From assembly GCF_004364245.1 (NCBI RefSeq), contig NZ_SOAV01000004.1, forward strand, positions 186,001 to 250,000: a stretch of 64,000 nucleotides of DNA, given 5' to 3'. Shown here in pieces: positions 10,926 through 35,481 of the stretch. The notes under the pieces were generated by a model, which had not been told where the DNA came from, made no database searches, and saw nothing but the letters and a program-made list of their open reading frames with translations. How positions within the stretch are numbered: position 1 is the first letter of the stretch; the number at the start of each line of letters is the position of its first letter. The translations under genes were made by a program, and so were the position numbers. This stretch comes from Streptomyces sp. BK208 (lineage in GTDB: Bacteria > Actinomycetota > Actinomycetes > Streptomycetales > Streptomycetaceae).

Positions 10926-13487
10926 CTACTCCGTGGCGACCGCGTGCAGGACGTCCAGGCGGGCGGCCCGCCGGGCAGGTCGCAGGCCCGCCAAGGCCCC
11001 GGCGGCGAGGCCCACCAGAGCCACCACGGCGAGCCGTACGGGCGGCAGCGCGAAGACGAAGGCGGAGTCCGAGGCACCGTCGGAGGCCGCCACGAGGACC
11101 CAGCCGAGGAAGGCGCCGAGACCGAGCCCGCCGGCCGTGCCGAAGGCGGCGACCAGGACGGACTCCCAGCGGACCATGGCCCGCAGCTGCGCCCGGGTCT
11201 GCCCGACGGCCCTCAGCAGCCCCAGTTCGCGGGTGCGCTCGTGGACCGCCAGGGTCAGGGTGTTGGCGATGCCCAGGAGTGCGATGAGCACCGCGAGGGC
11301 GAGCAGCGCGTAGACGAGGGTCAGCATCATGTCGATCCCGCCCGCCGAGGACCGCGCGTACGCGTCGCGGGTCTGCACCTCGGGGTTGCCGTACCGGTCG
11401 GCGACCTTCTCGACCGCGGCCCTGCCCTCGTCCGGGTCCACGCCGTCCGCGAAGTCGACCGCGATCAGGGTGTCGGAGTCCTGGGTGCGGTGCGGGGCCC
11501 AGGCGGTGCGGGTGATGACGTAGTCGCCGACGAGTTCCGACTGCCCGTAGACCGCGCGGACGGTGAAGGTGGCGCTGCGTCCGTCGGTGAAGGTGAGGCG
11601 GGTGGTGTCCCCGGTGGTCAGCCCCTGCTTCTCCGCCTCGCTCTCGGTGATGGCGAGGCCGTCGGCGCCCAGGTCGTCCAGGGAACCGTGGACGGTGCCC
11701 AGGTCGAAGGCGCGGTCCAGGGCGTCCGGATCGGTGACGGTCAACGCCCGTCCCCTGCCGTCGACTTCCGCCACCCCGCGGCCCAGTCCGACGGCGGTGT
11801 CCACCTGGGGCAGCTCCTGGACCGCACCGGCCAGGCGGGGACTGAGGCCGCTGCCGCCCGCGCCGAAGGACGGCGCGCTGACGGCTACGTCGCCGGCGAA
11901 GGACCGGGAGACGGTCTGGTCCATGGTCGCCTTGAGCGAGGCGCCGAACACCGTGAACAGCGACACGACCGCCACGCCGATCATCAGCGCCCCGGCGGTC
12001 GCCGCCGTCCGCTTGGGACTGCGCAGCGCGTTGCGCCGGGCGAGGACCCCGGTGACGCCGCGCATCCGGTCCAGCGGGGCACCGAGGACGCGTACGGCGG
12101 CGGTGGCGGCGACCGGGCCGAGGACGACGAAGGAGGCCAGGGCCAGGACGGCGCCCGCTCCCGCCTGCCACACCGACGGGGAGACCAGGACCCCGGCGAG
12201 CGTCAGGGCGAGGGCGAGCCCGAGCAGCGCCGTGCCGGTGACCGCCCGCGCGCGGGAGGCGCCGGAGGTGTCGACGGCCGTCTCGCGCAGCGCGGCGAGC
12301 GGTGCCGTGCGCCCGGCACGGACGGCGGGCAGCAGGGCGGAGCCGAGGCAGACCACGACGCCGACGGCGAGCGGGAGCAGCAGCGACGGCGCGCCGATCA
12401 CCAGGGCGCCGTCGGGGAACGGGAAACCGATCGCGGGGAACAGGGCCTGGAGCCCGGCCGCGATGCCGATGCCGCCCGCGAGTCCGGCGGCGGACGCGGT
12501 CACGGCCACGACGGCCGCCTCGACGAGAGTGGCGGCGGTGACCTGGTGCCGGGAGGCGCCGATGGCGCGCAGCAGGGCGTTCTCGCGGGTGCGCTGGGCG
12601 ACCACGATGGCGAAGGTGTTGTGGATCGAGAAGGTCGCGACCAGCAGGGCGATGCCGGAGAAGACGAGCAGGAAGGTCGTGAACAGCGTCAGGAACCGGC
12701 TGGAGATCATGTCGGTGTTCTCCGCGGCCGACTCCTGCCCGGTGATGGCCTCGACGCCCCCGGGCAGCACGCGGGTGAGCCGCTCCACGAGTTCCCGCTG
12801 GCCGACGCCCGGCCCGGCCCGCACCTGGATGCTCGCCGCCTCGCCCGGCCGCGCGCTGAGGTGTTTCTCGGCGTCGGCCTGGGTCATGCCGGTGAAGGTC
12901 ACCTGGGCCATGCCGTCCGCACCGCCGAAGGTGGCGAGGCCGACGATGGTGACCTCGACGGGGTCGGGGGTGCGCAGGACGGTGGTGTCGCCGATCGCCA
13001 GGCCGCCCTTCTCGGCGGCGCCGCGGTTGACGACGACCTCGCCGGACCTGTGCGGGGCACGGCCCTCGGCGAGGCGGTACGGGTTCAGCTCCGGGTCGGT
13101 GATCCAGTTGCCGGCCAGCGTGGGCGGGCCCTGACCGCCGATCGGGTCGCCGTCCGCACCGACGAGCTGGCCCGCGCCCTGGATGCTGGGAGCGGCGGCC
13201 GCGACACCGGGCACCCGCTCGACGGTTCGCACCAGGCCGGTGCCGACCGGCTGCCGCACGCCCTGGCTCTCGCCCGGCGCGGTGATCGCGTCGGCGCTGC
13301 GCACCACGGCGTCGGTGCCGCCGGCGGCGTCGCCGAACATCGTGTCGAAGCTCGCGCGGAGCGTGTCGCCCATGACGAGGGTGCCGGCCAGGAAGGCGAC
13401 GCCCAAGGCCACGGCGAGGAACGTACCGGCGAAGCGTCGCTTGTGGGCCCTGAGCGAGGACGCGCTCAGGCGGACGGAGGCGTTCAT
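10926..13487 (-). CDS. ABC transporter permease with two FtsX/MacB-type domains
   Basis: 853 residues from the ATG at 13487, which overlaps the stop of the ATPase gene as ATGA. A cytoplasmic basic start (SLRAHKRRFAGTFLAVALG) leads to the first membrane helix. A long extracytoplasmic MacB_PCD-like domain follows, then an FtsX core of three helices near residues 265-410 (FSIHNTFAIVVAQRTRENALLRAIGASRHQV), a second membrane block, another periplasmic-type domain, and a second FtsX core at the C-terminus (TLTLAVHERTRELGLLRAVGQTRAQL). This is the usual Streptomyces two-FtsX permease working with one ATPase. Substrates include peptides, lipoproteins or drugs in relatives; here unknown. Confidence 0.92.
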   Translation of the reverse strand: MNASVRLSASSLRAHKRRFAGTFLAVALGVAFLAGTLVMGDTLRASFDTMFGDAAGGTDAVVRSADAITAPGESQGVRQPVGTGLVRTVERVPGVAAAAPSIQGAGQLVGADGDPIGGQGPPTLAGNWITDPELNPYRLAEGRAPHRSGEVVVNRGAAEKGGLAIGDTTVLRTPDPVEVTIVGLATFGGADGMAQVTFTGMTQADAEKHLSARPGEAASIQVRAGPGVGQRELVERLTRVLPGGVEAITGQESAAENTDMISSRFLTLFTTFLLVFSGIALLVATFSIHNTFAIVVAQRTRENALLRAIGASRHQVTAATLVEAAVVAVTASAAGLAGGIGIAAGLQALFPAIGFPFPDGALVIGAPSLLLPLAVGVVVCLGSALLPAVRAGRTAPLAALRETAVDTSGASRARAVTGTALLGLALALTLAGVLVSPSVWQAGAGAVLALASFVVLGPVAATAAVRVLGAPLDRMRGVTGVLARRNALRSPKRTAATAGALMIGVAVVSLFTVFGASLKATMDQTVSRSFAGDVAVSAPSFGAGGSGLSPRLAGAVQELPQVDTAVGLGRGVAEVDGRGRALTVTDPDALDRAFDLGTVHGSLDDLGADGLAITESEAEKQGLTTGDTTRLTFTDGRSATFTVRAVYGQSELVGDYVITRTAWAPHRTQDSDTLIAVDFADGVDPDEGRAAVEKVADRYGNPEVQTRDAYARSSAGGIDMMLTLVYALLALAVLIALLGIANTLTLAVHERTRELGLLRAVGQTRAQLRAMVRWESVLVAAFGTAGGLGLGAFLGWVLVAASDGASDSAFVFALPPVRLAVVALVGLAAGALAGLRPARRAARLDVLHAVATE

Positions 13488-14233
13488 GACGGCACCTCGA
13501 AGGCTTTCATCCGGTCGAGGACCGTGTCGGCGGTGGGCGCGTCCATACGGTCGACGAGGCGTCCGTCGGCGAGGAAGACGACCTCGTCCGCGTGGGCGGC
13601 GGCGACCGGGTCGTGGGTGACCATGACGACGGTGCGGCCGGTCTGCCGGACGGTGCGGCCGAGCAGGCCCAGCACCTCGCCGCCGGAGCGGGAGTCGAGG
13701 TTGCCGGTGGGCTCGTCGGCGAAGACCACGTCCGGCCGGCCCGCGAAGGCGCGGGCCACGGCGACGCGTTGCTGCTGACCGCCGGAGAGTTCGGCGGGCC
13801 GGTGGTGGAGGCGGTCGCGCAGTCCGACGACGTCGATCAGGGCGTCGACCCACTCGGTGTCACCGGGCCCTCCGGCGAGGTCGAGGGGGAGGGTGATGTT
13901 CTCGGCGACGGTCAGGGTCGGCACCAGGTTGAACGCCTGGAACACAAAGCCGACGCGGTCGCGGCGCAGCAGGGTGAGCCGGCGGTCGTCCAGGGTGCCG
14001 AGGTCGGTGTCGCCGATGTGGGCGCTGCCCGAGGTGAGCGTGTCCAGGCCGGCGGCGCAGTGCATCAGGGTGGACTTGCCGGAGCCGGAGGGCCCCATGA
14101 TGGCGGTGAAGCGGCCGGCCGGAAAGTCGACGCTCACGCCGTCGAGGGCGTGTACGGCGGTGTCGCCACCGCCGTACACCTTCACGGCGTCCACGACCCG
14201 GGCGGCGGCCCGGGTGACGGTCGTCGTGGTCAT
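13484..14233 (-). CDS. ABC transporter ATP-binding protein (LolD/MacB type)
   Basis: 249 residues from the ATG at 14233. Walker A GPSGSGKST, Q-loop region VFQAFNLVPTLTVAENI, signature LSGGQQQRVAVARA, Walker B VVFADEPTGNLD and the switch histidine in VMVTHDP are all present, so it should hydrolyse ATP. The VFQxFNL and DEPTGNLD forms are those of the MacB/LolD family that drives FtsX-type permeases by mechanotransmission rather than substrate passage. Its start overlaps the stop of the upstream SHOCT gene, and its stop overlaps the permease start, so all three are likely translated in a coupled way from one transcript. Confidence 0.95.
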   Translation of the reverse strand: MTTTTVTRAAARVVDAVKVYGGGDTAVHALDGVSVDFPAGRFTAIMGPSGSGKSTLMHCAAGLDTLTSGSAHIGDTDLGTLDDRRLTLLRRDRVGFVFQAFNLVPTLTVAENITLPLDLAGGPGDTEWVDALIDVVGLRDRLHHRPAELSGGQQQRVAVARAFAGRPDVVFADEPTGNLDSRSGGEVLGLLGRTVRQTGRTVVMVTHDPVAAAHADEVVFLADGRLVDRMDAPTADTVLDRMKAFEVPS

Positions 14234-14514
14234 GCCGCGCCGCCCTTTCCGCTCCTGCCGAACTGCTCGTCCAGCACGGACAGGCGGCGCCAGTACTCGT
14301 CCTCGTCGATCTCGCCGGAGGCGAAGCGGTGGCCGAGCACCGTGATGGGCGAGTTGTCCTCGGCGCTCCCCGGCCGCCCGGGGCCGCGGCGCCCGCGCCA
14401 CACCGTGCGGCGCAGCAGGGTGATGCCGCCGCCGATGACCAGCACCCAGATCACCGGGAAGAGCAGGATCCACGGGCCGGGCCCGCCGTCGCCGAACTGT
14501 GCCAGGGTCTCCAT
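14230..14514 (-). CDS. Small membrane protein with SHOCT domain, first gene of the ABC operon
   Basis: 94 residues. The ATG at 14514 is preferred over the in-frame TTG at 14523 because GAGGAG lies 9 nt before it. A single membrane helix (WILLFPVIWVLVIGGGITLL) is followed by a basic stretch and a C-terminal SHOCT-type motif, PITVLGHRFASGEIDEDEYWRRL, in which short oligomerising helices are expected. SHOCT proteins of this kind often sit beside transporters and probably tether or oligomerise partners. Its stop overlaps the ATPase start (ATGA). Confidence 0.8.
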   Translation of the reverse strand: METLAQFGDGGPGPWILLFPVIWVLVIGGGITLLRRTVWRGRRGPGRPGSAEDNSPITVLGHRFASGEIDEDEYWRRLSVLDEQFGRSGKGGAA

Positions 14515-14714
14515 GTCGTCCAACTCCTCGGTCGCGATGTCCCTCGTGTCGCTTCCGAGCCTCGCTCCGGGAGGGGGCCCCGGTCGTCGTACGGCCAGCG
14601 GCAGTGTGCGTACGCCGCCGGGAGTACTCCGGCGGCGCGCGTCTGCTTCCCCCCTCCCGCTGCGCCCTCCCGCTTCCCCCTCGCACGCCGCGCTTCCCCG
14701 ATCACTCGACTTCT

Positions 14715-14732
14715 GTAACTACTAGTATGTAC
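14715..14732. promoter_or_regulatory. Dyad operator candidate for the adjacent TetR regulator
   Basis: An 18 bp imperfect palindrome, GTAAC-TACTAGTA-TGTAC, centred on the 8 bp perfect core TACTAGTA. It contains a -10-like TAGTAT (14723-14728) and ends 9 bp before the TetR start codon. Size and position fit autoregulation; the AT-rich core stands out sharply from its surroundings. Confidence 0.6.
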
Positions 14733-14741
14733 AGTGCGTGC

Positions 14742-15314
14742 ATGAGCACCTCGGAACGACTGATCGAGTCCACCCGCGAGCTGTTGTGGGAGCGGGGATA
14801 CGTGGGCACCAGCCCCAAGGCGATCCTCGAACGGGCCGGCGCCGGGCAGGGCAGCATGTATCACCACTTCAAGGGCAAGCCCGATCTCGCGCTCGCCGCG
14901 ATCCGGCGGACGGCCCAGGAGATGCGGGTCACCGCCGCCGCCCTGCTCGACGGCCCGGGGACGCCGTACGAGCGGATCGAGGCGTATCTGCTGCGCGAGC
15001 GCGACGTGTTGCGGGGGTGCCCGGTCGGCCGTCTGACCATGGACCCGGACGTGATCGCCGACGACGCCCTGCGCGCCCCAGTGGACGAGACCCTCGACTG
15101 GCTGCGCGAGCGGATCGCCGGGTTGGTCGAGGAGGGCCGGGAGCAGGGCGAGTTCGCGCCCTCGCTGGACGGGGCGGAGGTCGCGGCGGCGGTCGTCGCG
15201 ACCGTCCAGGGCGGCTACGTGCTGGCCCGCGCGTCCGGCTCCCCCACCGCCTTCGAGGCGGCCGTCCGAGGGCTGCTCTCGCTGCTCGCCACTCACAGGA
15301 ACACCACCGCGTAG
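14742..15314 (+). CDS. TetR/AcrR-family transcriptional regulator
   Basis: 190 residues from the ATG at 14742; an earlier in-frame ATG at 14727 lies inside the operator and is unlikely. The N-terminal HTH is typical: TRELLWERGYVGTSPKAILERAGAGQGSMYHHFKGK in pieces, with the recognition helix around GQGSMYHHF. The C-terminal half (residues about 75-190) looks like the TetR_C domain of the LmrA/YxaF type, with GCPVGRLTMDP. It is followed 16 bp later by a cupin gene and a run of small enzyme genes on the same strand, so it probably controls that cassette as well as itself. Confidence 0.9.
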   Translation: MSTSERLIESTRELLWERGYVGTSPKAILERAGAGQGSMYHHFKGKPDLALAAIRRTAQEMRVTAAALLDGPGTPYERIEAYLLRERDVLRGCPVGRLTMDPDVIADDALRAPVDETLDWLRERIAGLVEEGREQGEFAPSLDGAEVAAAVVATVQGGYVLARASGSPTAFEAAVRGLLSLLATHRNTTA

Positions 15315-15330
15315 AGGAGTCCGAGGACCA

Positions 15331-15726
15331 GTGCACATCACCCGACAGCGCCCCGCGACCGAGCAGGGCCCGGCCGAGAACTTCACCGGCGCGGTCTGGC
15401 TGGACGAGATCGCCGTGCCCCCGGCGCCCTCCCGGCTCCGCATGTTCAACGTCCACTTCGCACCGGGCGCGCACACCGCCTGGCACCACCACCCGCACGG
15501 CCAGGTCCTGCACATCCTGGAGGGCGAGGGCCGGGTGCAGCGCAGGGGCGGCGCGGTCGAGCACGTCCGCGCGGGCGACACCGTGTGGATCGCACCGGGC
15601 GAGTGGCACTGGCACGGCGCCGGGCCGCGCACCTTCATGACCCACCTCGCGGTCGTCGAGGCCGCCGGGGACGGCACGACCACCGAGTGGGGCGCGCACG
15701 TCGCCGACGAGGACCAGCACGCCTGA
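15331..15726 (+). CDS. Cupin-domain protein
   Basis: 131 residues from a GTG at 15331, in the run GAGGAGTCCGAGGACCA after the TetR stop. A single cupin barrel with motif 1 HFAPGAHTAWHHHPHGQVLHILEGEG, whose histidines and Glu form a metal site, and motif 2 region VRAGDTVWIAPGEWHWHGAG. The arrangement is that of small cupins annotated as (R)-mandelonitrile lyase-like or quercetin-dioxygenase-like; the reaction cannot be fixed from sequence. Place in a cassette with a phosphotriesterase-like protein, a tautomerase and a VOC protein suggests a role in degrading or modifying a small aromatic or lactone compound. Confidence 0.88.
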   Translation: MHITRQRPATEQGPAENFTGAVWLDEIAVPPAPSRLRMFNVHFAPGAHTAWHHHPHGQVLHILEGEGRVQRRGGAVEHVRAGDTVWIAPGEWHWHGAGPRTFMTHLAVVEAAGDGTTTEWGAHVADEDQHA

Positions 15727-15736
15727 GGGGGCATCC

Positions 15737-16324
15737 ATGCACGCCATGCAGTACTCGTTCACCCTGCCCGCCGACTACCCGATGGACGTCATCAGGGACC
15801 GCGTGGCCGGCACCGGGCACCTGCTGGACGACTGGCCCGGCCTCGGACTCAAGGCCTACCTGGTGCGCGAGCGCGGGCGGGACGGGTCACCGGTCAACCA
15901 GTACGCACCGTTCTACCTGTGGCGGAGCGTGGAGGGCATGAACGCCTTCCTCTGGGAGGGCGCCTTCCAGCGGCCCACCGACGACTTCGGCCGGCCCGCG
16001 GTCCGGCAGTGGACGGGCCTCGCGTACGAGGAGGGCGGCGCCGCCGGCTCCCCCGCGCGGGTGGCCGTCCTGCGGAGGCAGCCGGTCCCGGAAGGCGGGG
16101 CGCTGTCGGAGGTGGCGCAGCGGGCCGTGCGGGAGGCCGGACGGCTGGCGGCCGCGGACGGGACGCTGCTCGCCGCGGCGGTCGTGGACACCGCCCGCTG
16201 GGAGCTGGCGCACTTCTCGCTCCACGCGGGCGAGGCGCCGGACGGGGCGGAGGGCGAGGTCTTCCACGTGCTGCACCTCTCCGAGCCGGGGCGGGGCCTG
16301 CTGGCGAGGGGGCGGCAGTGGTGA
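15737..16324 (+). CDS. DUF4865 family protein
   Basis: 195 residues from the ATG at 15737, 10 bp after the cupin stop (GAGGGGGC before it). It matches the DUF4865 pattern: MQYSFTLPADYPMDVIRDRV at the start, then PGLGLKAYLVRERG, NQYAPFYLWRSVEGMNAFLW and FGRPAVRQWTGLA. The family is about this length, has no proven activity, and probably adopts a dimeric alpha/beta-barrel (EthD/monooxygenase-like) fold. Its stop overlaps the following start (GTGA), so it is tightly coupled to the phosphotriesterase gene. Confidence 0.85.
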   Translation: MHAMQYSFTLPADYPMDVIRDRVAGTGHLLDDWPGLGLKAYLVRERGRDGSPVNQYAPFYLWRSVEGMNAFLWEGAFQRPTDDFGRPAVRQWTGLAYEEGGAAGSPARVAVLRRQPVPEGGALSEVAQRAVREAGRLAAADGTLLAAAVVDTARWELAHFSLHAGEAPDGAEGEVFHVLHLSEPGRGLLARGRQW

Positions 16325-17229
16325 GCGCCGTCCGCACCGTGCTCGGGGACGTGCCCGGTGGGGAGTTGGGCGTGTGCGACGCGCACGACCACTTGTTCTT
16401 CGCCTCTCCCCGGCTGCCCGGCGAGGAGCTGGACGACGCGGCGGCTGCACGTGCCGAGCTGACCGCGTTCCGGGAGCGGGGCGGCGGCGCCGTGATGCAG
16501 TGGACGCCGTACGGGCTGGGACGGCGGGCCGCCGATCTGCCGGGACTGTCCCGGGAGACCGGAGTGCACGTGGTGGCCGCGACGGGGCTGCACCAGGAGG
16601 TCCACTACGCAGAGGAGACCCTCGCCGCGCTGCGGGGCCGGCTCGCCGAGGTCTTCGTCGGCGAGCTGACGCGGGGCATCGGGACGTCGGGCGTGCGCGC
16701 CGGACTGATCAAGGTGGCCGGGGGTTTCCACGCGCTCGACGCGCACGCGCGGTGGACCATGTCGGCGGCGGCCGAGGCGCACCACGCGACGGGCGCGCCC
16801 ATCGCCGTCCACCTGGAGCTGGGCACCGGCGCCCTGGACGTACTGGACCTGCTGTGCGGCGAGTTGGAGGTACCGCCGGACCACCTGATCCTCGGGCACC
16901 TCAACCGCGCCCCCGACGCCGTGACGCACCGGCTCGCCGCCCGCTCGGGGTGCTGGCTGGCCTTCGACGGGCCGTCGCGGGGCAACCACGCCACCGACTG
17001 GCGGATGCCGGACGCGGTGCGGGACCTCGCCGACGCGGGGTTCGGCGACCGGCTGCTGCTCGGCGGCGACACGACCACCGCGTCCGCCCGGTCGGTCGAC
17101 GGCGGGCCGGGGATGCCGTACCTGCTGCGCCGCGTGGCGCCCCGGCTGGCGCTCGCCGTGGGGGACGACCTGGTGCGGCGCATCCTCACCGACAATCCCG
17201 CGCGGGCGTTCGCCGTCGCCTGGCACTGA
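16321..17229 (+). CDS. Phosphotriesterase-family amidohydrolase (possible lactonase)
   Basis: 302 residues from a GTG at 16321 overlapping the preceding stop. The metal-site pattern of the phosphotriesterase family is present: HxH at residues 22 and 24 (DAHDH), the candidate carboxylated lysine in GLIKVAGG, His in IAVHLELG, His in ILGHLNRAP, and the catalytic Asp in LLLGGDTTT. Members hydrolyse lactones, phosphotriesters or related esters. The sequence is slightly shorter than typical PTE lactonases (about 320-330), mostly before the first metal motif. Coupling to DUF4865 suggests a dedicated substrate. Confidence 0.87.
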   Translation: MSAVRTVLGDVPGGELGVCDAHDHLFFASPRLPGEELDDAAAARAELTAFRERGGGAVMQWTPYGLGRRAADLPGLSRETGVHVVAATGLHQEVHYAEETLAALRGRLAEVFVGELTRGIGTSGVRAGLIKVAGGFHALDAHARWTMSAAAEAHHATGAPIAVHLELGTGALDVLDLLCGELEVPPDHLILGHLNRAPDAVTHRLAARSGCWLAFDGPSRGNHATDWRMPDAVRDLADAGFGDRLLLGGDTTTASARSVDGGPGMPYLLRRVAPRLALAVGDDLVRRILTDNPARAFAVAWH

Positions 17230-17270
17230 CGTCCGGGCCACCCGCCGCGGGCTGCCGGACCCGGGTCCGG

Positions 17271-17300
17271 GCACCGGCACCGGCACCGGCACCGGCACCG
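17271..17300. repeat. GCACCG hexanucleotide repeat
   Basis: Five tandem copies of GCACCG in the 118 bp gap before the tautomerase gene. It is a short GC-rich simple repeat with no spacer structure; slippage-prone at most. Confidence 0.7.
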
Positions 17301-17347
17301 ACCGGCACCGGATGCGGATGCGGCCTACCACTCGACAGGGGAACCCC

Positions 17348-17749
17348 ATGCCTTTCGTACGCATAGACGCCTACGGCACCGACTCCCGCCCGGACCGGCT
17401 CGACGCGCTCGGCCGGGCCGTCCACGACGCCCTCGTGGAGACGCTCGGCATCCCGCCCGACGACCGCTTCCAGGTGCTGACGGCGCACGACGCCGCCCGC
17501 GGCACCCTGCCCCACGACGACTACCTCGGCGTGCACCGGGACGAGGGCATCGTCTTCGTGGCGATCACCCTGCGGGCAGGGCGGACGACCTGGCAGAAGG
17601 AGGCGCTGTACCACCGGATCGCCGAACTCGCCGAGGAGTACGCGGGGACGGCCCCCCGCAACGTCCTCGTCACCCTGAGCGAGAACACCTCCGCCGACTG
17701 GTCGCTGGGCGACGGGCTCGCACAGTACGTAGGGTCGCGATCATGCTGA
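17348..17749 (+). CDS. Tautomerase-family protein
   Basis: 133 residues starting MPFVRIDAYG, from the ATG at 17348. The residue after the initiator methionine is proline, the catalytic base of the 4-oxalocrotonate tautomerase/MIF superfamily. The length is about twice that of 4-OT and fits the longer tautomerase_3-like members such as cis-CaaD/MSAD relatives; GIPPDDRFQVLTAHD and ENTSADWSLGDG are typical of this subgroup. It sits in the same-strand run downstream of the phosphotriesterase-like gene and its last 7 bp overlap the VOC gene. Confidence 0.88.
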   Translation: MPFVRIDAYGTDSRPDRLDALGRAVHDALVETLGIPPDDRFQVLTAHDAARGTLPHDDYLGVHRDEGIVFVAITLRAGRTTWQKEALYHRIAELAEEYAGTAPRNVLVTLSENTSADWSLGDGLAQYVGSRSC

Positions 17750-18141
17750 GACTCGGAATTCCCGTCATCGGTGTCACCGACATCCCCCGTGCGGTGGCGT
17801 TCTGGACCCAGGCGCTGCCGCTGGTCACCACGGAGGAACGGCAGAGCGAGACGTGGCGCACCCTGTACCACGCGGACGGCTCCGGCCGCGCTCTCGGACT
17901 GATGCGCAGCGACTCGCCGGTGGAGCCGCGCCCCCGTCTGCACCTCGACCTGTTCACCGACTCAGCCGAGGAGCAGGAGGCGGAGGTGCGGCGGCTGATC
18001 GCCCTGGGGGCGCGGGCCGTCGAGTGGGACCGATACCCGCCCGACCCGGACTTCGTCGTCCTGGCCGACCCGGACGGCAACGTCTTCTGCGTCATCGACC
18101 TCGGCCACGCGCCGAGCGGCGGCGACGGGCCCGCGACCTGA
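17743..18141 (+). CDS. VOC (glyoxalase/dioxygenase) superfamily protein
   Basis: 132 residues from the ATG at 17743, overlapping the tautomerase gene by 7 bp. Two beta-alpha-beta-beta-beta modules are recognisable: LGIPVIGVTDIPRAVAFWTQAL and later RPRLHLDLFTDSAEEQEAEV, ending DPDFVVLADPDGNVFCVIDL, the usual VOC C-terminal strand. Candidate metal or ligand residues are H in RLHLDL and E or D near the end. Enzymes of this fold cleave C-C or C-S bonds or simply sequester small molecules. This is the last gene of the TetR cassette. Confidence 0.88.
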   Translation: MLRLGIPVIGVTDIPRAVAFWTQALPLVTTEERQSETWRTLYHADGSGRALGLMRSDSPVEPRPRLHLDLFTDSAEEQEAEVRRLIALGARAVEWDRYPPDPDFVVLADPDGNVFCVIDLGHAPSGGDGPAT

Positions 18142-18157
18142 GGCGTCCTCCGGCTGC

Positions 18158-19396
18158 CTACGCCGGTACGCCCAGCGGGTCGTCCAGGACCGGCTGCCAG
18201 GCCAACTCGGCCGCACCGACGAGGCTGTTGTGGTCCAGGCCGCAGGGCAGGATCGGCACGCCGCCGCTCTGGCCCCACAGGCTGCGCCCGGCGACGACCG
18301 CGCGCAGCCGCTCCGGGTCGGCGTCGAGAAGCGCCCGGTGCAGTCCGCCGAGGACGATGCGGTCGGGGTTGAGGATGTTCACCAGGCCGGCGAGGCCCAG
18401 GCCGAGGCGGTCGATGAGGGTCTCGGTGGCGGTGCGGACGGCCGGGTCGGCGTAGTGGTCGCGGATCAGGTCGTAGGACCGCTGGAGCAGTGAGACGTCG
18501 GGGCCCGGCTCGCGTCCGGCGGCCGTGAGGAAGGCCAGCGGGTCGGTCTCCACGTCCAGGCAGCCGCGGCTCCCACAGTGGCAGGGGCGCCCCTCGGGAT
18601 TGACGGCGAGGTGGCCGACCTCCAGGGCGAGACCGGAACTGCCGGTGTGCAGGCGGCCGTCGAGGACCAGCGCACCGCCGACCCCGCGGTGGCCGGTGGC
18701 CACGCACAGCAGGTCGCGCGCGCCGCGTCCGGCGCCGTGGCGGTGCTCGGCGAGGGCCGCGAGGTTGACGTCGTTGGCGGCGAAGGCGGGCCCCTCGATC
18801 CCGGCGGCCCGCACCTGCCGGGCGAAGATCTCCCGCACCGGGGCACCCGCCGGCCAGGCCAGGTGCAGCGGGTTCAGGGCCAGGCCCTCCGGTTCCGCGA
18901 CGGCCGACGGCACGGCGAGCCCCGCGCCGACGCAGCGGCGCCCGGTCCGGCTCAGGAGTTCCGCGCCCGCCTCGACGACGGAGCCCAGCACCTTCGCCGG
19001 GTCGGCGTCGACGACCTCGCAGCCGGGTGCGGTGGCGACGATCCGGCCGCCTAGACCGACCAGGGCCGCGCGGAAACCGTCGGCGTGGATCTGGGCGGCG
19101 AGGGCGACGGGCCCGTCCTCGGCGACCGAGAGACGGTGCGAGGGGCGGCCCTGGGAGCCGGCCGCCGCGCCGGGCCGGGCGTCCACCCGGATCAGGCCGA
19201 GCGCCTCCAGTTCCGCGGCCACCGCGCCCGCCGTGGCGCGGGTCACCCCCAGTTCCGCGGTGAGGACGGCCCGGGTGGGGGCGCGGCCGGTGTGCACCAG
19301 CTCCAACGCGGGTCCGAGCGCACCGCGTCCCCGGTCCAGCCGCGTCCTCGAGGTGGTCCCTTCCCCCGCCGCCCGGGGGTCCGCCTTGCCGCTCAT
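18158..19396 (-). CDS. ROK-family transcriptional regulator
   Basis: 412 residues from the ATG at 19396. An N-terminal winged HTH (RAVLTAELGVTRATAGAVAAEL, then LIRVDARPG) precedes a ROK sugar-kinase-like domain with the zinc-type motif CHCGSRGCLDVE preceded by LALEVGHL. Such proteins (NagC, XylR, Mlc relatives) bind sugars in the kinase fold and repress transport genes. The kinase ATP site looks degenerate: no DIGGTK sequence is visible near its start. It stands alone, converging with the VOC gene, so its targets are not evident; the short dyad GGGAGTCTCCC lies next to its start and could be an own operator. Confidence 0.88.
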   Translation of the reverse strand: MSGKADPRAAGEGTTSRTRLDRGRGALGPALELVHTGRAPTRAVLTAELGVTRATAGAVAAELEALGLIRVDARPGAAAGSQGRPSHRLSVAEDGPVALAAQIHADGFRAALVGLGGRIVATAPGCEVVDADPAKVLGSVVEAGAELLSRTGRRCVGAGLAVPSAVAEPEGLALNPLHLAWPAGAPVREIFARQVRAAGIEGPAFAANDVNLAALAEHRHGAGRGARDLLCVATGHRGVGGALVLDGRLHTGSSGLALEVGHLAVNPEGRPCHCGSRGCLDVETDPLAFLTAAGREPGPDVSLLQRSYDLIRDHYADPAVRTATETLIDRLGLGLAGLVNILNPDRIVLGGLHRALLDADPERLRAVVAGRSLWGQSGGVPILPCGLDHNSLVGAAELAWQPVLDDPLGVPA

Positions 19397-19586
19397 GAGG
19401 GGGAGTCTCCCATGATCCGTCCGTGTCGCCGCCCGGGACGCCTCTTCCGATCTCGGTCCGGGCGACCCAGCACGACGACCCGGCTGGCCTGGCCCCGCAG
19501 GAAGTCCGTCCCACGATCACTTGCCTGGTCCTGGGGAGGCACACTGACCCGAGTGGGAGGCGGAGGTGCTCACGACCGGGCTGCGT

Positions 19587-20564
19587 CTACGCCGCGAGAG
19601 TGTCCAGGACGTCGGTGACGGGAGCGGGGTCCAGCGGGCCCACGTGGGACGCCTCCGGGAAGTCGTGTACGCGGAAAGGGTTGCCGGGGGTGAGCGCGTC
19701 GGCTTCCGCGACCATCCTGTCCTGGAGAGCGGTGGCTATCGTCCGGTCCTCACCGAAGCGCAGGTAGGTGCGGCGAATGCGTCCCCAGCTCTCGGCGCGG
19801 CCGACGGCTCGACCCGCGTAGGCGGCGACGGGCTCGTCGGTCTGCATGCCGGCCAGTACCCGGCGGAAGTCGGCTTCCGGGTAATCGGCGCAGATCATCT
19901 CCTTGAGAAGGGCGAGTTCACGACGCTCACCTGTCCGGAAGTTCAGCCGCAGCACTCCGAGGCGGTCCGGGTCGCCCACCGTCAGCTCGACCGGACTGAC
20001 GGCGTCGGCGTTCTCGGGTGCCGCCGTGCAGGCGTCCGCTGTGGGCAGGGCACGGCTGGGGCAGAAGGCGGCCATGTAGCAGAGGTGGTGAAGCAGGTGC
20101 GGGACGGCGTTGCCGACGCGGCTGACCGACACGCCGCCCAGACTGTGCCCGACCAGCACCACCGGGCCGTTCCTCGCCGCGCGCCGCACGGCACCCGTGA
20201 CGCGTGCCTCGTAGTCGTCCAGTCCGAGGCCCGACAGCGGGGAGGGCTCGGACGCCATCGCTTCGAGGTCCTGCCGCTGGTAGGACTCCGGGAGGAAGGC
20301 CTCCGTGCCGTGCCGCGGCTGGTCCACCATGACGACGCGGTGGCCCCGGAGCGTCAACTCCCGCGCGATCGGCGTCCAGAACGCGCCGGCGCTGTGGGTG
20401 CCGTGCACCAGCACGTAGGTGGTGGACCCGCGACGAGGCTCAGCCGCTGCTCGCGACGCTCCGGCCCCGCCGGACAGGGCGGTGGCACCCACCGCGAGCC
20501 CCAGACCGCGCAGCGCCGTCCGCCTGGTGGTACCCGATCGCTGATCGTTCGTGGAATCCGTCAT
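19587..20564 (-). CDS. Tat-exported alpha/beta-hydrolase
   Basis: 325 residues. The N-terminus has a twin-arginine signal (TTRRTALRGLGLAVGATAL, cleavage after about residue 40 near ASRAAAEP), so export in folded form is expected. The mature part is an alpha/beta-hydrolase: YVLVHGTHSAGAFW supplies the oxyanion region, GHSLGG the nucleophile elbow, and HDFPEASHVGPLDP the likely catalytic histidine near the end. The family is the esterase/lipase EstC or salicylate-esterase-like group. It is separated from the ROK gene upstream on the same strand by 190 bp in which I see no gene. Confidence 0.85.
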   Translation of the reverse strand: MTDSTNDQRSGTTRRTALRGLGLAVGATALSGGAGASRAAAEPRRGSTTYVLVHGTHSAGAFWTPIARELTLRGHRVVMVDQPRHGTEAFLPESYQRQDLEAMASEPSPLSGLGLDDYEARVTGAVRRAARNGPVVLVGHSLGGVSVSRVGNAVPHLLHHLCYMAAFCPSRALPTADACTAAPENADAVSPVELTVGDPDRLGVLRLNFRTGERRELALLKEMICADYPEADFRRVLAGMQTDEPVAAYAGRAVGRAESWGRIRRTYLRFGEDRTIATALQDRMVAEADALTPGNPFRVHDFPEASHVGPLDPAPVTDVLDTLAA

Positions 20565-34407: not shown

Positions 34408-35481
34408 ATGGCGCACACGTCCCAGGACACCGAAGGCGGTCCCCCGGCGCGCGGCCGGTGGTCCGCCTTCCGGCAGTCGCCGTTCTGGCCGGCCACCGTG
34501 CTGGTGCTGATCCTCGCGGCCGCGGCGGGTCTCTTCGCGGGCTCGTACACCTACTCGATGGCGAACCCGACACCGCGCCTGATCCCCACGGCCGTGGTCG
34601 GTTCCTACGAGAGGGCGGGCGGGCAGGCCTATCTGCTCGGCCTGGAGAAGGCGCTCGACACCTCGGTGAAGGTGCATCCGTACCGGACCCGTGCCGCGGC
34701 CCACGAGGCGATCGAGCAGCAGGAGGTGTTCGCGGTCTTCGAACTGCGCGAGGACGGGCGGCGGGCCGTTCTCGACGTGTCCGGCGCGTCCGGCTCGTCG
34801 GTCGCCGAACTGCTCGCGCAGACGGCACCGGCCGTGGGCGAGAAGCTCGGCGTCCAGGTCACCGTCCGGGACGTCAACCCCCTCCAGGAGGGCGACCCGC
34901 GCGGCCTGGCCATCTTCTACATCTCACTGGCCGCCGTGATCATCGGTTTCGTCGGGGCGATCCAGCTGAGCGTGCACGCGCGCTCGCTCACCCCGGTCGA
35001 GCGCATCCTGTTCACGGTGGCCTACGCGCTGCTGGGCGGGTTCGCCATCGCCGCCACGGTGGACTGGCTGCTGGGCGCGCTGGACCTGCCGTTCGCCGAG
35101 TCGTGGCTGATCCTGGCGCTCACGATGTTCGTGTCCGGCATGGTCTTCACCATGTTCAACACCCTGTTCGGCCGCTGGGCGATGCTGCCCACGTGGGGCC
35201 TGATGGTGATCATCGGCAACCCCTCCTCGGGCGGCGCGGTGTCCTGGCCGCTGCTGCCGTCACCGCTGGGACTGATCGGCCGGTGGCTGCCGCCCGGGGC
35301 CTCGGTCAACGCGCAGCACACGGCGGTGTACTTCCAGGGCCATCAGCACGCCTTCCCCTTCCTGGTGCTGGCCGGGTGGGCGCTGCTGTCCTGCGCGGTC
35401 TTCTGGGTCTGGCGGCACCGGCATCCCGGCGGACGGGAGAAGGACCCGTCGGAAGCCGGGACGGAGGCCACCGGCTCCTGA
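34408..35481 (+). CDS. ABC-2/YhgE-Pip-like membrane protein
   Basis: 357 residues from the ATG at 34408, 12 bp after the Dps stop. It has an N-terminal helix (WPATVLVLILAAAAGLFAGSYTYSMANPTPRLIPTAVV in pieces), an extracytoplasmic domain of about 130 residues, and then five or six membrane helices (IFYISLAAVIIGFVGAIQL, SWLILALTMFVSGMVFTMFN) with the conserved motif NPSSGGAVSWPLLP. This plan is that of the DUF3533/SNG1 and YhgE/Pip membrane proteins, which are ABC-2-like permeases without an obvious ATPase. Export of a toxic compound is a common guess. Close spacing with dps may mean co-transcription. Confidence 0.7.
   Translation: MAHTSQDTEGGPPARGRWSAFRQSPFWPATVLVLILAAAAGLFAGSYTYSMANPTPRLIPTAVVGSYERAGGQAYLLGLEKALDTSVKVHPYRTRAAAHEAIEQQEVFAVFELREDGRRAVLDVSGASGSSVAELLAQTAPAVGEKLGVQVTVRDVNPLQEGDPRGLAIFYISLAAVIIGFVGAIQLSVHARSLTPVERILFTVAYALLGGFAIAATVDWLLGALDLPFAESWLILALTMFVSGMVFTMFNTLFGRWAMLPTWGLMVIIGNPSSGGAVSWPLLPSPLGLIGRWLPPGASVNAQHTAVYFQGHQHAFPFLVLAGWALLSCAVFWVWRHRHPGGREKDPSEAGTEATGS

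Follow-up and report, generated by a model that had tools for sequence, protein, structure and literature searches.

We describe here a cluster of six genes in a 64-kb stretch of Streptomyces sp. BK208 DNA (contig NZ_SOAV01000004.1, positions 186,001 to 250,000), hereafter the window, by which we mean the whole stretch analysed; it belongs to a 7.7-Mb genome in 33 contigs, and its GC content is 69-77% per 2-kb step. The cluster consists of a gene for a TetR-family regulator (tetR), preceded by an operator-like site, and of genes for five small proteins, one of them a member of the uncharacterized family DUF4865. On our best reading of the sequence comparisons, it would belong to a regulon with DUF4865 and an MSAD-like tautomerase at its core. 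The features are as follows:

14714..14733, + strand: operator-like near-palindrome TGTAACTACTAGTATGTACA, with 8 nt between the end of the site and the tetR start
14742..15314, + strand: TetR-family regulator, probable autorepressor (Pfam TetR_N and TetR_C_13; Cys93 in a GCPxGRL motif)
15331..15726, + strand: cupin of the GtHNL-like group (Pfam Cupin_2; NCBIfam NF049940)
15737..16324, + strand: DUF4865 protein with a predicted dimeric alpha+beta barrel (ABM-like) fold (Pfam PF16157; AlphaFold2 model)
16321..17229, + strand: phosphotriesterase-like (PTE) metal hydrolase, possible lactonase, with a GTG start (Pfam PTE)
17348..17749, + strand: MSAD-like Pro-1 tautomerase (Pfam Tautomerase_2; nearest solved structure FG41 MSAD, 3mjz)
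17743..18141, + strand: VOC (glyoxalase-like) protein, placed so as to share the transcript but no regular member (Pfam Glyoxalase_6)

Direct reading of the sequence agrees with an earlier note on this DNA, in which the six genes were said to run head to tail with gaps of 16, 10, -4, 118 and -7 and the stop of DUF4865 to overlap the start of the PTE gene (the overlap is 4 bases); tautomerase and VOC genes overlap by 7 bases. A codon-usage gene caller recovered the same six genes, with the PTE start placed 3 bases earlier, and all six proteins score above the curated Pfam cut-offs (DUF4865, 234.2 bits versus 26.7; PTE, 128.8 versus 22.4). The tautomerase, read from its start at 17348, begins MPF..., and so carries the N-terminal Pro used by the tautomerase family. 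Consensus scans of positions 14480-18300 returned no terminator-like or sigma-70-type promoter-like matches, and there were no Rfam matches in 13000-20000.

Comparison of tetR loci between species reveals that the upstream flanks diverge and that a near-palindromic 20-bp block, TGTAMCTACTRGTATGTACA, stays. This block immediately precedes tetR at 65 of the 67 loci compared, the window included (54 exact copies, nine with one mismatch and two with two), and in 57 of these 65 the next ATG or GTG, located by a simple pattern, lies 8 nt past the site. Both tetR loci that lack it (L100 in genome G007 and L056 in genome G093; L and G numbers are our handles for loci and genomes) have damaged tetR starts. 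Within the window's own genome the site is single-copy at up to 3 mismatches. Across 150 Streptomyces genomes it occurs at two or fewer mismatches in 76, versus a single match for the reversed-pattern control in the same 150. TetR was detected in 77 of these genomes (expectation value, E, of 1e-30); both TetR and site are present in 75, TetR alone in two (G007, G109), the site alone in one (G102), and neither in 72, a tally that is largely one locus counted twice.

Two tetR loci have unusual structures. On contig 8 of G087 (34789-34842), the operator occurs in tandem, 14 bases apart, before one tetR, the second copy having 2 mismatches. On contig 1 of G093, tetR is split: the part at L195:3044-4784 (~814.1 kb) has the operator and the remainder, in L056, runs from ~6119 (~889.9 kb), with ~76 kb between the pieces and a resolvase-domain gene beginning right behind the first, as if an integrative element had inserted into tetR at the YHHF motif.

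The site also marks genes that lie apart from the tetR locus. Matches to the window tautomerase at E 1e-15 were found in 33 of the 150 genomes, the best match having 52-100% identity in 29 (close) and 39-47% in four (distant), a boundary that was set after the matches had been seen. Linkage to the TetR locus is seen for ten of the close tautomerases; the other 19 are unlinked, and the site is present upstream, in the same orientation, of all 19; in 17 cases it ends 1-141 bp ahead of the tautomerase start, and in the remaining two (G055, G096) it is followed by a second-site TetR gene and then by the tautomerase. None of the distant paralogues (one copy from each of the four genomes) has the site in the stretch taken, at up to 3 mismatches. 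Every one of the 29 close tautomerases comes from a genome with this TetR; the 73 genomes without it have none.

A similar picture emerges for the other genes. Five DUF4865 loci have no adjacent TetR (L045, L050, L073, L078, L099); three of them (in G045, G055 and G096) are preceded by the site, with 2 mismatches each, ending 58-76 bp upstream, and in these genomes TetR is found elsewhere, behind its own site. One detached PTE gene is preceded by the site, and in G086 TetR-DUF4865, PTE and tautomerase occupy three separate places with the site at each. The site also precedes TetR-PTE pairs that have no DUF4865 (L196, L197, L200) or have a remnant of it (L204, L224). At L194:2519-3114 it is followed by a TetR paralogue and then an MFS gene, and at L198:3002-4914 by an MFS gene and then a GtHNL-type cupin; judging by their position behind the site, these MFS genes may encode transporters of the regulon.

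Additional gene associations were noted around detached members. A divergent NADH:flavin oxidoreductase gene (~671 aa) lies beside the detached tautomerase and operator in L210, L218 and L220; in L199 and L201 the site lies beside such a divergent gene as well, and the tautomerase is a weak remnant. In L232, L233, L235 and L236, a CMD gene overlaps or adjoins, and precedes, a detached PTE gene, with an ABATE/CGNR-type regulator divergent, forming a second PTE-CMD context; in L231 such a regulator is present and no CMD was called.

Of the 150 Streptomyces genomes, 72 carry DUF4865, and in a sample of the phylum it was found in 3 of 296 genomes, all three Streptomyces and the window's own among them. 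We took 71 regions around DUF4865 matches and dropped one that held a fragment (L101), which left 70 loci from other Streptomyces, two of them with a shortened DUF4865. Full-length neighbours on the same strand were TetR at 65 loci, PTE at 38, cupin at 21, tautomerase at 8 and VOC at 2, and PTE rises to 44 and cupin to 23 if fragments are counted too (a family not among the alignment rows given is not necessarily absent). The adjacency of TetR and DUF4865 is more than chance. The commonest layouts were TetR with PTE (19), TetR alone (18), and TetR with cupin and PTE (15); those closest to the window (L081, L085) miss the cupin only, and the complete window set of TetR and all five enzymes was found at none of the 70 loci. 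The earlier note had treated the five enzymes as one cassette, to be refuted if the genes did not travel together in other genomes; in this survey they do not do so physically, and a fixed cassette is rejected. Having been found beside DUF4865 at just two loci, VOC is likewise discarded as a core member, and is a lineage-specific addition. At other places in Streptomyces genomes, cupins with 44-53% identity are frequent.

Upstream of DUF4865, 33 of the 70 loci have a divergent ABC-transporter gene, and downstream 53 have an opposite-strand ROK gene; 29 have both. Since these flanks recur, and are found in the window likewise, much of the DUF4865 family resides at one chromosomal place. In the window this divergent operon lies on the minus strand at 10926-14514 and encodes, besides the ABC transporter, a SHOCT-type small protein. 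Leftover fragments of PTE, cupin and DUF4865 genes suggest that members have been lost. In genome G009 (L224:3615-3794), for example, DUF4865 has shrunk to a 59-codon open frame made from its two ends, flanked by intact TetR and PTE genes.

Outside Streptomyces, we analysed the best 80 of 539 relatives found in a scan of species genomes, a proteobacterial set. Among the 78 loci with the standard layout, the genes beside DUF4865 encode a tautomerase (75), a cupin (42) or CMD (13), and a LysR gene is divergent in 77. Two further loci, near contig ends, have tautomerase and cupin too, which brings the tautomerase to 77 of 80; the three without it are L113, L178 and L187. Cupin and CMD were never found together in the 78. 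The cupin belongs to loci that we take to be alphaproteobacterial and CMD to those that we take to be beta- and gammaproteobacterial; because the split follows lineage in this set, the exclusion may be plain inheritance. Clustering of neighbouring open reading frames across the 80 loci gave nine clusters present in at least three genera, namely LysR, DUF4865, tautomerase, cupin, four judged from their position to be overlapping or antisense frames, and a short-chain dehydrogenase, assigned to its family through one member, which occurs at 18 loci in 3 genera, a median of 3.8 kb upstream.

A protein search of plasmids found 92 records with DUF4865, of which Pantoea accounts for 77. In four of nine plasmid neighbourhoods (Pantoea agglomerans, Pantoea sp. 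MT58, Vibrio and Pseudoalteromonas) LysR is divergent from CMD-tautomerase-DUF4865; an Agrobacterium vitis plasmid has tautomerase-cupin-DUF4865, again with LysR divergent, and a P. ananatis plasmid has tautomerase-DUF4865. No such partner lies beside DUF4865 in the Cutibacterium acnes and Streptomyces lavendulae plasmid neighbourhoods, and the ninth (Burkholderia arboris) is a record without annotation. On the Cut. acnes linear plasmid pTP-CU411 (L104), DUF4865 is near one end, with no adjacent tautomerase, cupin or PTE annotated.

The nearest solved relative of the tautomerase is FG41 MSAD (3mjz), followed by P. pavonaceae MSAD, with whose Asp37, Arg73 and Arg75 the Asp38, Arg75 and Arg78 of the window enzyme align; roles for these MSAD residues are given in PMC10606566. 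Pro1, Asp38, Arg75 and Arg78 are invariant in all 29 Streptomyces copies. In 77 aligned proteobacterial rows, Pro1 and the Asp are each kept in 76 (one gap) and the second Arg in 77, and the first Arg is replaced by Gly in 71. The cupin scores 154 bits with NF049940, (R)-mandelonitrile lyase (cut-off 140), and its nearest solved structures are 4bif and 4uxa, in alignment to which the metal-site residues are kept; the A. vitis cupin is under the same cut-off (107.5 versus 140). In the PTE protein, the HxH, Lys, His, His and Asp positions, which we take to be the metal ligands of 3pnz, are kept in alignment, and no specific NCBIfam subfamily was reached (phospho-furanose lactonase, 105.7 versus 630; organophosphate hydrolase, 42.7 versus 500). 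Similarly, TetR lies below the NCBIfam equivalog cut-offs for the ScbR family (66.6 versus 150) and AcuR (46.5 versus 247), two CMD proteins are under the PcaC cut-off of 155.7 (63.2 and 53.6), and VOC has no solved relative at E 0.001.

DUF4865 has no sequence relative in the PDB (best E 0.85). An AlphaFold2 model has a pLDDT of 90.9 and a pTM of 0.86; the alignment behind it joined the window protein to those of 44 proteobacterial loci out of the 80, and D13, Y14, R22, K39, N54, Y56 and W62 do not vary in it. The model matches 3mcs best (Z 16.8, root-mean-square deviation 3.2, 183 aligned residues), followed by 3f44 (Z 15.4), 2pgc (12.7), sulfur oxygenase reductases (~12), PenE (11.9), HmoB (11.7) and the anthrone-oxidase-like 5f9p (11.5). 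DUF4865 is therefore predicted to belong to the dimeric alpha+beta barrel class, the model indicating the fold and not the reaction.

The earlier note's other suggestion, that the genes serve a small-molecule pathway with a TetR of its own, is supported by the conserved site at tetR, by its presence at detached tautomerase, DUF4865 and PTE genes, and by the recurrence of DUF4865 with the tautomerase in Proteobacteria. We have high confidence that the TetR/site regulon is real. Because detached genes share the site and the DUF4865-tautomerase pair recurs in Proteobacteria, the genes appear to belong together, and we have good confidence that they share one pathway. The window cluster is probably a locally gathered form of a TetR regulon that would break down or detoxify a small molecule.

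Several observations weigh against this interpretation. The close tautomerase is missing in 48 of the 77 TetR genomes, and is hence not needed everywhere, and in two of the 29 copies (G009, G116) the match is interrupted by a stop. Many DUF4865 loci have no cupin or no VOC beside them. Two of the DUF4865 loci without adjacent TetR (L050, L099) have no site, nor was one found at seven detached PTE genes (60-78% identity; L231-L237), even at 5 mismatches, or near a partial second PTE in G090 at 2 mismatches. It is also important to note that the Fisher values for gene co-occurrence ignore relatedness and that the proteobacterial sample is mostly Rhizobium owing to the query. The seven site-less genes suggest that the PTE type works outside the regulon too; two distant PTEs (42-43% identity; L238, L239) are likewise without a site, and a PTE match is missing altogether in 27 of the 77 TetR genomes.

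From the position and conservation of the site, TetR would bind 14714-14733 at the promoter and repress its own gene together with the genes behind it. A ligand, probably a substrate or an intermediate, would free the site, and the enzymes, detached tautomerase included, would then be induced. As promoter and start codon would nearly coincide, the tetR transcript may be leaderless. As to the chemistry, the compound most likely to be degraded is a small lactone, an enol acid or an electrophile related to these. DUF4865, given its ABM-like fold, could perform an oxygenation, isomerization or lyase step; the cupin, or CMD elsewhere, could remove or rearrange a small unit; the PTE-like enzyme could open a lactone where one arises; and the tautomerase would act last, in a Pro-1-catalysed decarboxylation, hydration or ketonization of the resulting beta-oxo or enol acid. 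The order of these steps is doubtful, and our confidence in it is low. More broadly, and with confidence a little short of even, we propose that DUF4865 acts as a new oxygenase, isomerase or lyase and feeds the MSAD-like tautomerase in an undescribed pathway, that cupin (with its metal) and CMD are alternative catalysts of one step, that the PTE-like lactonase was added in Streptomyces, and that the TetR site serves as a genome-wide tag of the pathway's genes at any location.

The same genes could instead form an electrophile or quinone stress regulon, in which Cys93 lets TetR sense a reactive electrophile and in which quinones, enals or their products are cleared by DUF4865, by cupin or CMD, and by the tautomerase, with no carbon being assimilated. 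Cys93, in the GCPxGRL motif, is invariant in 67 of 67 aligned TetR copies, NemR (4yze) is among the matched TetR structures (E 1.1e-8), and the fold class of DUF4865 includes ABM-type oxygenases. The Cys is, however, also present in the two best-matched structural-genomics TetRs (3qbm, 3eup) and may be a subfamily trait, and neither MSAD-like tautomerases nor PTE-like hydrolases are typical of a response to quinone stress; we regard a stress regulon as rather unlikely.

Signal turnover or quorum quenching, with the PTE-like enzyme cleaving a gamma-butyrolactone or acyl-homoserine-lactone and TetR sensing the lactone ring as in the Rhodococcus qsd operon, is improbable. TetR with a PTE-like lactonase is the qsd arrangement (PMC6262395, as far as its available text goes), and PTE adjoins DUF4865 in 38 of the 70 Streptomyces loci, but the regulon persists in the 27 TetR genomes without a PTE match, no QsdC gene is among the six, and TetR misses the ScbR-family cut-off. 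QsdR (4ZA6), moreover, is not among the 30 distinct TetR chains matched at E 1e-5, which reflects membership of that list rather than a head-to-head comparison.

A role in cyanohydrin or nitrile metabolism, in which the cupin would take the lead by acting as a hydroxynitrile lyase, is very improbable: the window cupin exceeds the NCBIfam (R)-mandelonitrile lyase cut-off, but that label is based on the activity of few enzymes, the A. vitis cupin falls below it, and the cupin is present at only 21 of 70 Streptomyces loci and has CMD in its place at 13 of 78 proteobacterial ones. With the cupin optional and CMD substituting for it, a hydroxynitrile lyase was set aside as the main role. Least probable of all is that the genes are neighbours with no shared pathway, since proximity, even with partners that vary between species and with PTE, cupin and DUF4865 fragments that show decay, explains neither the site at detached genes nor the recurrence in Proteobacteria.

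Under the preferred interpretation, a TetR regulon around DUF4865 and the tautomerase, a domain of unknown function now has a fold prediction, a regulator and a constant partner, and what it does can be tested on one repressor, its 20-bp site and a handful of candidate enzymes. The regulon is recognizable after its genes came apart, so that the site can be used for finding further members, and the alternation of cupin and CMD suggests that a single chemical step may be served by two catalysts of unrelated kinds.

In the open-licence PubMed Central literature, no paper names 'DUF4865', and no description of this gene set was seen in listings of papers matching its component families; in the accessible text of a tautomerase superfamily survey (PMC5818174), the terms 'operon', 'genomic context', 'genome neighborhood' and 'DUF' do not occur. 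The nearest described arrangement found is qsdR-qsdA-qsdC of Rhodococcus erythropolis, in which a TetR gene controls a gene for a PTE-family lactonase (available part of PMC6262395). The window cluster shares with it a TetR gene and a PTE-family gene; it differs in that the same part of PMC6262395 names no DUF4865, tautomerase or cupin for the operon and in that the regulon persists without PTE. Membership of the qsd system was set aside because the acyl-CoA ligase QsdC is missing from the six genes.

At the level of single proteins, the window tautomerase resembles the MSADs of FG41 and P. pavonaceae in length, Pro1, catalytic Asp and both Arg positions, and by this likeness may be a decarboxylase. 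Known MSADs belong to 1,3-dichloropropene degradation, whereas the window's family is partnered with DUF4865, cupin or CMD, and TetR or LysR, and most proteobacterial copies carry another residue at one of the two Arg positions. The cupin is similar over nearly its full length to the GtHNL-type cupins (4bif, 4uxa; NF049940), shares their metal-site residues, passes the family cut-off and may have lyase activity, but it is an optional member of its regulon. DUF4865 is predicted to share its fold, across the whole domain, with ABM-like dimeric alpha+beta barrel proteins (3mcs, 3f44, PenE 9kdp, 5f9p, HmoB), at ~10-15% identity in structural alignments and with no PDB sequence match. As for pathways, in the lactone branch of the beta-ketoadipate pathway a small ferredoxin-fold lactone isomerase works with a CMD-family decarboxylase and a lactonase, and a LysR regulator is often in control. 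The present module has no ring-cleavage or CoA-step gene and its CMD proteins score below the PcaC cut-off, so that the logic of the proposed pathway would resemble this branch without being identical to it. What is described here is a group of known protein families in a probable TetR catabolic or detoxification regulon around one uncharacterized family, DUF4865.

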